From NCBI GenBank assembly GCA_023252215.1, contig JAHEXG010000009.1, forward strand, positions 1 to 33,722: a stretch of DNA of 33,722 bases, written 5' to 3'. This document shows, one piece after another, positions 1,433 through 3,410 of this stretch. Under the pieces are notes generated by a model. It had not been told where the DNA came from. It made no database searches and worked only from the letters and a program-made list of their open reading frames with translations. The DNA comes from Candidatus Altarchaeales archaeon. Lineage in GTDB: Archaea; Altiarchaeota; Altiarchaeia; IMC4; QMZM01. A program made the position numbers and the translations under genes. Position 1 is the stretch's first letter. Each line of letters opens with the position of its first letter.

Positions 1433-1507
1433 AATTACACTTTCAGTAATCTGATATTTAAATTACAAATACAGTAATTATATGGTATAGTTACAATTAT
1501 TGTAACT
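1433..1507 (+). promoter_or_regulatory. three evenly spaced operator-like dyads before abiEi
   Basis: Three inverted repeats share the form (A)nTTAC-N7-GTAAn. They are attac/gtaat (arms 1434-1438 and 1446-1450), aattac/gtaatt (1461-1466 and 1474-1479) and agttac/gtaact (1489-1494 and 1502-1507). The third extends to a perfect dyad, agttacaattattgtaact. Their centres at 1442, 1470 and 1498 are exactly 28 bp apart. The TATA-like gatatttaaa (about 1453-1462) lies between dyads 1 and 2, and the abiEi ATG follows at 1518. AbiEi antitoxins are known to bind inverted repeats upstream of their own operon, so autoregulation is the natural reading. Confidence 0.7.
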
Positions 1508-1517
1508 TAATGGGAAC

Positions 1518-2234
1518 ATGAAAACAATCAATCGATATCTCCGCCTCTTTCTAATGAGAGGAGAGAAGGAGTTTGGCTATAGAGACCTGATGGACGTTTT
1601 CAAGGTCTCGGCGAACAACGCCAAGGTCATAGTTTCAAGGATGTCTGCGGCGGGCATGGCCAGAAGAGTAGGCAGGGACCGCTACGCATTATTGGATCCC
1701 TTTGGTTACATGATCCGTTCCGCCTATGGGAGGAACGTAATGAAGTACATGGAAGAGGTCTACGGCAAGGGTTATTATTTTACGGGGCCGAGCGCTCTTT
1801 CATTTTACGGACTTGTCTCAAGCGGGGAATACTACGTTTCCGTGGAAGATGCAACGGCAGTGGAAACATACGTTAAAGCAGCGCAAGTTAATGTCTTTGC
1901 ACTAAAGAGGCCGATAGAAGAAAAGAATTATAATAGGGAGGTTTTTGAGGGACTGGAGGCAAACGTCGCCCTGTCCGAGGTATCTTTGGCCGAGACATTG
2001 CTCCTGGGGCAGGATATTATCCAGTTCTATGGGATACCTGCGGTAGGGAGCTATCTGGAGAGGGGATATGACGTAAAAAAGCTTGTCCGTGCCGCAGGAG
2101 ACGCAGGTGTAAAGGATTACATGGACAAAATCCTTAAGGTCTACAAGAACAGAGGTTATAAAGTATCGTTTGTACCAAAAAGTTCGCCTGACAAAAAGGA
2201 GGAAGAATTCATCTCCGGAGGGATAAATGTATAG
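1518..2234 (+). CDS. abiEi: AbiEi-family antitoxin / transcriptional repressor
   Basis: Predicted antitoxin of a type IV AbiE toxin-antitoxin pair and autorepressor. Residues 1-60 form a winged helix-turn-helix (FKVSANNAKVIVSRMSAAGM as the recognition region, then a wing RRVGRDRYAL). Residues 80-170 carry the AbiEi-like segment beginning YYFTGPSALSFYGL. The 238-aa length fits the family. Its stop overlaps the start of the next gene by 8 bp, so translation is probably coupled. Three phased dyads lie immediately upstream and are likely its own binding sites. Assignment rests on the domain pattern plus the adjacent AbiEii-like nucleotidyltransferase. Confidence 0.75.
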   Translation: MKTINRYLRLFLMRGEKEFGYRDLMDVFKVSANNAKVIVSRMSAAGMARRVGRDRYALLDPFGYMIRSAYGRNVMKYMEEVYGKGYYFTGPSALSFYGLVSSGEYYVSVEDATAVETYVKAAQVNVFALKRPIEEKNYNREVFEGLEANVALSEVSLAETLLLGQDIIQFYGIPAVGSYLERGYDVKKLVRAAGDAGVKDYMDKILKVYKNRGYKVSFVPKSSPDKKEEEFISGGINV

Positions 2235-3075
2235 GCTTGCGGAAAAGATATCTGAGGAATGGATCGAAGAGGCTGCTGAGAAGACGGGTTATCCAAAACT
2301 ACAAGCAGAGTTCCTCGCGCATATGATGGACGCCGCCCAGTCCCTTTCCGCAATAGACCTTGTCCTAAAAGGGGGAACCGCCGTCCAGCAGGCAGTAAAA
2401 GAGCCTTACAGGCGGATCTCGATTGACCTGGACTACGACCTTGGCACAGAGATGTCCATTGAATCAGTTAAATCCCTGATGGATAAGCCGGCATACAAAG
2501 GAGGCGTTTACAATAGGTTCACGGGCACTCTCACATATTATCGGGCAGCACCGACGCATTACAAATCCGAGAAAAGGATCTTGGGAGAAAAGATCAACGC
2601 ACACCTGATAAAGATACAGATAAATACTCGGATAGTATCAAGAGAATATGATCAGGCTGTCTTCAACATGCTTCCGGGCATACTTGACGAATACGCCTTC
2701 AGGCAAAAGATGCTGTCCGTTGAGAGGCTTCTTGCAAACAAGATAGTGGTTTCAGCATGGTCTGAGAAGGTTAAAGTAGGTAGGGCGAGATACAAAGACC
2801 TTTATGACGTCGTCTCCTTAGTCAATTACCCTAAGAGGAAGCCGGACTATGAAAGAGTATCTGAAGAAGTCAGAAGAGACCTTCGCAGGCGGGGAAGCAA
2901 GTTATCAGTGAAGGAAGTCGTTTCCTCGTGCGCCGCCAACATTACACAACTAGAAGAGGATAATGCATTAGGATTCTATTCGTCCTACAAAGTCTCGGAA
3001 GAGGTATCAAAAAACATCCGGGACCTCGCCGAGACGACTATCAAAGCTTTGGAATCCCTCGGAATAGAAGAATAG
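2227..3075 (+). CDS. abiEii: AbiEii-family nucleotidyltransferase toxin
   Basis: Predicted toxin half of the AbiE pair, a nucleotidyltransferase-fold (DUF1814/AbiEii) protein of 282 aa. The signature glycine motif VLKGGTAV is at residues 46-53 and is followed by the metal-binding D-x-D in RRISIDLDYD (Asp67, Asp69). A later RYKDLYDVV segment corresponds to the conserved K-D helix of the family. AbiEii toxins are reported to be GTP-binding nucleotidyltransferases that arrest growth and can cause abortive phage infection. The key residues are present, so the copy looks active. It overlaps abiEi by 8 bp and ends 13 bp before a perfect 20-bp palindrome. Role in this host (phage defence or plasmid/island maintenance) is inferred from the family. 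Confidence 0.85.
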   Translation: MYRLAEKISEEWIEEAAEKTGYPKLQAEFLAHMMDAAQSLSAIDLVLKGGTAVQQAVKEPYRRISIDLDYDLGTEMSIESVKSLMDKPAYKGGVYNRFTGTLTYYRAAPTHYKSEKRILGEKINAHLIKIQINTRIVSREYDQAVFNMLPGILDEYAFRQKMLSVERLLANKIVVSAWSEKVKVGRARYKDLYDVVSLVNYPKRKPDYERVSEEVRRDLRRRGSKLSVKEVVSSCAANITQLEEDNALGFYSSYKVSEEVSKNIRDLAETTIKALESLGIEE

Positions 3076-3212: not shown

Positions 3213-3410
3213 ATGGCTAAGGTCGTTTTCGAAGGGGTCGGCTCGCTTATTACAGGTACGTGTCCCAGATGCCCTGAGAGGATCACAGTTCTCGTTAAGG
3301 AAGGGGAGAATCACAAGAACGGTAAGTGCATATACTGCGGCGCGCAAATACACGGGGACGCCATTTCCGAGATCATCAGGGAAGGCCATTATGAGGAGGT
3401 TGAGAATTAG
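3213..3410 (+). CDS. small zinc-ribbon protein, short paralog (65 aa)
   Basis: Minimal zinc ribbon with CPRCPE near residue 17 and CIYCGAQIHGD near residue 38, ending after IIREGHYEEVEN. It is a clear paralog of the N-terminal half of the protein at 444 and lacks its C-terminal extension. The start is moved in from the track's 3183, because a GGGGGAGG ribosome-binding site sits at the right distance only for the ATG at 3213 and the paralogy begins at that methionine (MAKVVFEGVGSL/MAETVFKGRGTL). The next gene begins 3 bp after the stop, suggesting an operon. Molecular role unknown; zinc binding is inferred from the four cysteines. Confidence 0.75.
   Translation: MAKVVFEGVGSLITGTCPRCPERITVLVKEGENHKNGKCIYCGAQIHGDAISEIIREGHYEEVEN

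Follow-up and report, generated by a model that had tools for sequence, protein, structure and literature searches.

A putative autorepression operator of three tandem dyads at the promoter of an altiarchaeal abiE operon

The autorepression of AbiEi through repeats in its promoter has been established in Streptococcus agalactiae (PMC3985639), Mycobacterium tuberculosis (PMC7319586), and Streptococcus suis (PMC11062541). In the abiE promoter of S. agalactiae, AbiEi acts on the repeats IR1 and IR2, which cover the promoter and the start site (Dy et al. 2014, PMC3985639). They are two asymmetric 23-bp boxes in inverted orientation (23-3-23), with centres 26 bp apart and the core TGTTGCTTTTA-N27-TAAAAGCAACA, and AbiEi was modelled as one monomer per 23-bp box on a bacterial -35/-10 promoter (PMC3985639). 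The S. suis operator also consists of two boxes (PMC11062541), and the M. tuberculosis homologue Rv2827c binds four inverted repeats of 23 bp, which are separated by gaps of 13-4-13 bp and are occupied with graded affinities and negative cooperativity (Beck et al. 2020, PMC7319586). As published operators have either two boxes or four, multiple AbiEi sites as such are not new, and a sequence-only reading of the present DNA, which singled out a third site, has to be corrected on this point. The same reading took it as known that bacterial AbiEi binds paired repeats cooperatively; this holds for S. agalactiae according to later work as cited in PMC7319586, but binding was called non-cooperative in the first study (PMC3985639), and cooperativity is negative in M. 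tuberculosis. Studies of archaeal AbiE operators were not found in a search of the open-access literature, and, judged from that literature, the operator described below looks like the first one reported for an archaeal AbiE system.

The window, which is the whole 33.7-kb stretch of DNA that was analysed, contains two genes that overlap by 8 bp, a wHTH antitoxin gene in first place and a DUF1814/AbiEii nucleotidyltransferase gene in second place. The operon and its promoter are laid out as follows.

1434-1450, no strand: putative operator dyad 1, ATTACACTTTCAGTAAT, with its right half-site directly next to the BRE region in the predicted promoter
1454-1461, + strand: TATA-like box of archaeal type, ATATTTAA, between dyads 1 and 2 and identical at 8 of 8 positions in three homologous loci
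1462-1478, no strand: putative operator dyad 2, ATTACAAATACAGTAAT, between the TATA box and the predicted start
1482-1486, + strand: predicted transcription start, about 25-28 bp past the TATA box centre (archaeal TATA-to-start spacing)
1490-1506, no strand: putative operator dyad 3, GTTACAATTATTGTAAC, just 3' of the predicted start and degenerate in the homologous locus L005
1518-2234, + strand: abiEi (divergent, wHTH), assigned from PADLOC, a profile-profile match, and a structure model
2227-3075, + strand: putative abiEii-like nucleotidyltransferase toxin of 282 aa, assigned from Pfam AbiEii and PADLOC AbiEii

The second gene matched the Pfam AbiEii model at 3.2e-12 (47.3 bits, above the cut-off of 22.5) and the PADLOC AbiEii model at 8.6e-9, and by these matches it is clearly an AbiEii/DUF1814 nucleotidyltransferase. 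The first gene matched PADLOC AbiEi weakly (1.2e-5) and none of the Pfam AbiEi models, and the NCBIfam AbiEi model gave 1.1e-5 for the homologue L004 only, far below its cut-off. A profile of the window AbiEi and its two relatives matched a set of 15 archaeal AbiEi_1/AbiEi_4 proteins with E=5.7e-14 over 182 columns, which span the wHTH and the C-terminal domain of AbiEi, and these archaeal proteins in turn hit 6y8q, the solved structure of the abortive-infection protein AbiEi from S. agalactiae, at 6.6e-6. Since the profile match covers both domains and leads on to 6y8q, the first gene is, on sequence comparison, a divergent but genuine AbiEi. Its fairly confident AlphaFold model from seven sequences (pLDDT 83), which was used in place of a poor model from three sequences (pLDDT 62), contains the wHTH; with this model, Foldseek against the PDB gave short wHTH-type matches only, with no AbiEi structure among the best, no match at E<=0.001, and no full-length AbiEi. 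Relatives were not found among IMG/VR viruses. By homology, the locus is thus an abiE type IV toxin-antitoxin operon of an altiarchaeote, with predicted toxicity and neutralisation.

The motif TTAC-N7-GTAA occurs exactly three times in the whole window (1435-1449, 1463-1477, and 1491-1505), and the centres at 1442, 1470, and 1498 all lie inside the 84 bp 5' of the ORF that starts at 1518. The claim of the sequence-only reading that three dyads share the same half-site core and the same 7-bp spacer is therefore exact in the window. The symmetric core is even one base longer on each side, giving RTTAC-N7-GTAAY at 1434-1450, 1462-1478, and 1490-1506 with a period of 28/28 bp; within one dyad, the half-site centres are 12 bp apart, which is about one helical turn. 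The three occurrences compare with 0.35 expected in the window, and three copies anywhere were seen in one of 100 whole-window shuffles. Dinucleotide shuffling of the local 137 bp (20,000 trials) gave neither three TTAC-N7-GTAA copies nor an equally spaced triple (0/20,000 for each), and in 13 trials some 4-bp half-site dyad appeared at least three times. In the host genome (1.55 Mb), tandem dyads are confined to the abiE promoter. A chance origin of the triple is ruled out by the window counts, the local shuffles, and the genome-wide scan for tandem dyads. Single RTTAC-N7-GTAAY dyads occur four times elsewhere in the host genome versus three times for the reversed control pattern, indicating that these other single dyads are background. 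There was accordingly no sign of a wider AbiEi regulon in this genome.

Around the dyads, the promoter can be placed by its geometry. Archaeal transcription generally starts about 25-28 bp after the centre of the TATA box, so that ATATTTAA, whose function as a TATA box is proposed from archaeal promoter structure, would place the start near 1482-1486, and abiEi begins about 12 bp downstream of dyad 3. Two close homologues were found (L004 and L005), both in other genera and with protein identities of 54% and 46%; the close family thus comprises three loci in the collections searched, and one of the two relatives falls within the taxonomic family of the window's genome. Among 29 Altiarchaeota genomes, a close AbiEi is present in three, and tandem dyads are present in precisely these three, always directly 5' of abiEi; the reversed control pattern was found in tandem in none of the 29. 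The sequence-only reading had named absence of the dyads upstream of close homologues as one observation that would count against it, and both homologues carry phased dyads. L004 has three with a period of 27/27, and L005 has two at 28 and a degenerate third at 27, which overlaps the start codon of a gene whose leader is nearly gone. An exact 28-bp period, as had been claimed, is therefore a property of the window (28/28) but not a conserved constant, which is better given as 27-28 bp. In the 60 bp 5' of dyad 1, the loci are only 18-27% identical, while dyad 1 of the window is 71-76% identical to those of L004 and L005 and dyad 2 is 82-94% identical among the three loci, indicating that the conserved block starts at dyad 1. 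The repeated elements thus cover the abiEi promoter, with three dyads around the conserved TATA box that are kept in both homologues, and the earlier proposal that they straddle an abiE promoter is supported.

A genome of the same genus (G001) has the neighbouring genes and lacks abiE; between its deaminase and zinc-ribbon genes, unrelated small ORFs occupy the slot, indicating that operator and operon were gained or lost together. Accordingly, abiE is an accessory cassette here, which brings along its own putative operator. L005 also carries a second partial operator copy (L005:2451-3250, on G003:C23) with one full dyad, a TATA box, and half a dyad. It lies 974 bp upstream of the first copy, beyond a gene pair for a nucleotidyltransferase (Polbeta/NTP_transf_2) and a HEPN protein, so that the AbiEi of L005 might also control this adjoining toxin-antitoxin pair.

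The altiarchaeal locus resembles that of S. agalactiae in that repeated elements lie across the promoter and start of its own abiEi-abiEii operon, but the latter has two asymmetric 23-bp boxes on a bacterial promoter, whereas the window has three symmetric 17-bp dyads around an archaeal TATA box. The inverted 23-3-23 pair of asymmetric boxes is absent from this operator, in which 17-bp dyads, each symmetric in itself, follow one another at 27-28 bp. As at Rv2827c of M. tuberculosis, a DUF1814 toxin operon has more than two tandem AbiEi-type sites spread over its promoter, and we count stepwise occupancy, which is predicted for the three dyads, as a further likeness. Unlike the mycobacterial sites with their 13-4-13 gaps and graded affinities, the three dyads are equally spaced and have near-identical half-sites. 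What is new is the archaeal promoter setting and the compact symmetric dyads in tandem, which by their sequence suggest a dimer per site; the monomer on an asymmetric 23-bp box of characterised AbiEi does not predict such symmetric dyads.

The same half-site is common to other archaeal AbiEi promoters. Of 33 distant archaeal AbiEi-type starts, 11 have RTTAC-N7-GTAAY (at most one mismatch) nearby versus 0.9 expected from shuffles, a count that includes related subfamilies and thus overstates independence, although several distinct groups are represented. Examples are GTTACTATAATAGTAAC (L032), ATTACCTGAGAGGTAAT (L036), and ATTACCAATACAGTAAC (L044), and at these loci as well as at L033 and L058, the same half-site and the same N7 stand near the abiEi start. 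Most of these other promoters have one dyad versus the phased triple of the window, and three dyads in phase are the elaboration that this Altiarchaeota abiE family shows. The conserved half-site could thus provide a means of predicting AbiEi operators across archaea. Upstream of the AbiEi genes on plasmids of Thermococcus, Rhizorhabdus, and Halobacterium (L062-L064), RTTAC-N7-GTAAY was not seen by eye; the Thermococcus barophilus plasmid gene has a long inverted repeat instead. A further arrangement was observed in other archaea for AbiEi-like proteins of about 165 aa (L022-L025), which have two inverted 17-mers 5' of the start, such as GTTACAATAATATTAAC-N5-GTTAATATTGGTGTAAC in L024. Their outer half-sites are strong and their inner ones weak, which places them between the paired boxes of bacteria and the window dyads. 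Across 394 archaeal genomes, tandem dyads appeared in two further genomes. In G125, they belong to a coding repeat that overlaps the gene of a DEAD-box helicase; the pair of G245, from another archaeal family (L088:1501-1548, G245:C11), has a period of 31 with a TATA-like stretch between the dyads and precedes an unrelated wHTH regulator gene, indicating that the motif is not exclusive to AbiEi.

Taken together, the three dyads are very probably the autorepression operator of this archaeal abiE operon, with AbiEi as the predicted ligand. The wHTH of AbiEi would recognise RTTAC as its half-site. Given that every dyad is compact and two-fold symmetric, its half-sites being centred 12 bp apart, one dimer or symmetric pair of AbiEi would most likely occupy each dyad, and because N7 is constant inside the dyads while the gap between them varies, the dyad should be the recognition unit. 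Such symmetry favours a dimer over the one monomer per 23-bp box of the S. agalactiae model, and the symmetric dyads thus pose a testable challenge to that model of AbiEi DNA recognition. Dyads 1 and 2, which flank the TATA box, would block TFB/BRE contacts and the access of TBP, and dyad 3, covering the DNA just past the start site, would block the polymerase. The period of 27-28 bp corresponds to 2.6-2.7 helical turns, so that neighbouring dyads face different sides, as the sequence-only reading had calculated. With three such sites, repression could be graded or cooperative, the proteins sitting on successive faces of the helix; the stepwise or oligomeric repression and the DNA wrapping that the sequence-only reading envisaged are hypothetical.

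The G245 pair, with its tandem arrangement of the same dyad before an unrelated wHTH gene, raises the question of whether another host-encoded wHTH regulator binds these dyads, which would place abiE under external control. We consider this improbable: within Altiarchaeota, tandem dyads are restricted to the promoter of this AbiEi in the three genomes that encode it, isolated dyads in the rest of the host genome do not exceed the background, and the half-site is also present at promoters of distant archaeal AbiEi genes. A variant of the operator reading deserves more weight, although it too is unlikely: AbiEi might bind as independent monomers on half-sites or across neighbouring dyads (everted GTAAY/RTTAC), with the symmetry being secondary. 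The monomer-per-box model of S. agalactiae (PMC3985639) speaks for such binding, as do the outermost half-sites of adjacent dyads, which are about 40 bp apart versus 42 bp in S. agalactiae (counted from the printed sequence), but the spacer inside a dyad is always 7 bp, also in archaeal promoters with a single dyad, whereas the gap between dyads varies.

It is very improbable that the repeats act in RNA as 5'-leader hairpins, either as an attenuator or as a stability element. Dyad 3 can form a hairpin of 7-8 bp and folding of the full 96 nt gives z = -1.84, but this z is modest, the N7 centres of the other dyads are unpaired, the position of dyads 1 and 2 before or across the conserved TATA box would leave them mostly untranscribed, and L005 is nearly without a leader. 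We give equally little credence to the dyads being recombination or mobility sites of the accessory cassette: they are confined to the operon's 5' end with the promoter, instead of standing at both ends, and bracket a conserved TATA box, and no recombinase is evident among the neighbouring ORFs read. The variability of the abiE slot, which in G001 is empty of abiE at the same position, and the second partial operator copy of L005, which flanks the nucleotidyltransferase-HEPN pair, would fit such a role.

The spacing of the putative AbiEi operator recurs in a second family. In the same archaeal family, genes for wHTH-nucleotidyltransferase fusion proteins (L010, L012, and L015) are preceded by tandem TAACA-N4-TGTTA palindromes at 27-28 bp, with three copies in G008 and G010. 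The wHTH of the fusion family is homologous to that of AbiEi (hhalign E=6e-8 over 64 residues), but the palindrome and the C-terminal domain are different. That one register is used with two different palindromes suggests that wHTH arrays or the promoter, rather than chance, set the spacing, and may point to a structural rule governing how repressors are arrayed on archaeal promoters. Tentatively, one may go further and propose that one AbiEi dimer binds each palindrome, that three dimers in a fixed 27-28-bp register wind round the promoter on consecutive faces of the DNA, and that this register, which the second family reuses with its own palindrome, serves the wHTH autoregulators of Altiarchaeota as a common operator ruler and departs from the bacterial monomer-per-box mode; we regard this as possible but doubtful.

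The fusion gene is located after trpE where the upstream gene is seen (L010 and L015). In the host genome (G000:C48, L015/L026), it stands between trpE-like and trpG-like genes and is preceded by ATAACAAATTTGTTAT-type tandem palindromes with a 27-28-bp period, as also in L010, L012, and L029, and this type of palindrome was found nowhere else in the host genome. In G007, a tandem palindrome pair also follows trpE, at a contig end. The fusion protein is thus a candidate local autoregulator or regulator of the trp operon.

Two further observations concern the surroundings of the operon. At the contig edge, positions 11-346 of the window hold a CRISPR-like array with five copies of GACCGAGAAGCATATCCAGTAAAACAAGGATTGAAAC at a spacing of 73-74 bp, the 3' end of the last copy being degenerate. 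Two small zinc-ribbon-like genes at 444-806 and 3214-3410, which are paralogues (CPxCPE ... CxYCGAxIHGDxIS), flank the deaminase-abiE segment, and G001 has one such gene at the corresponding place.
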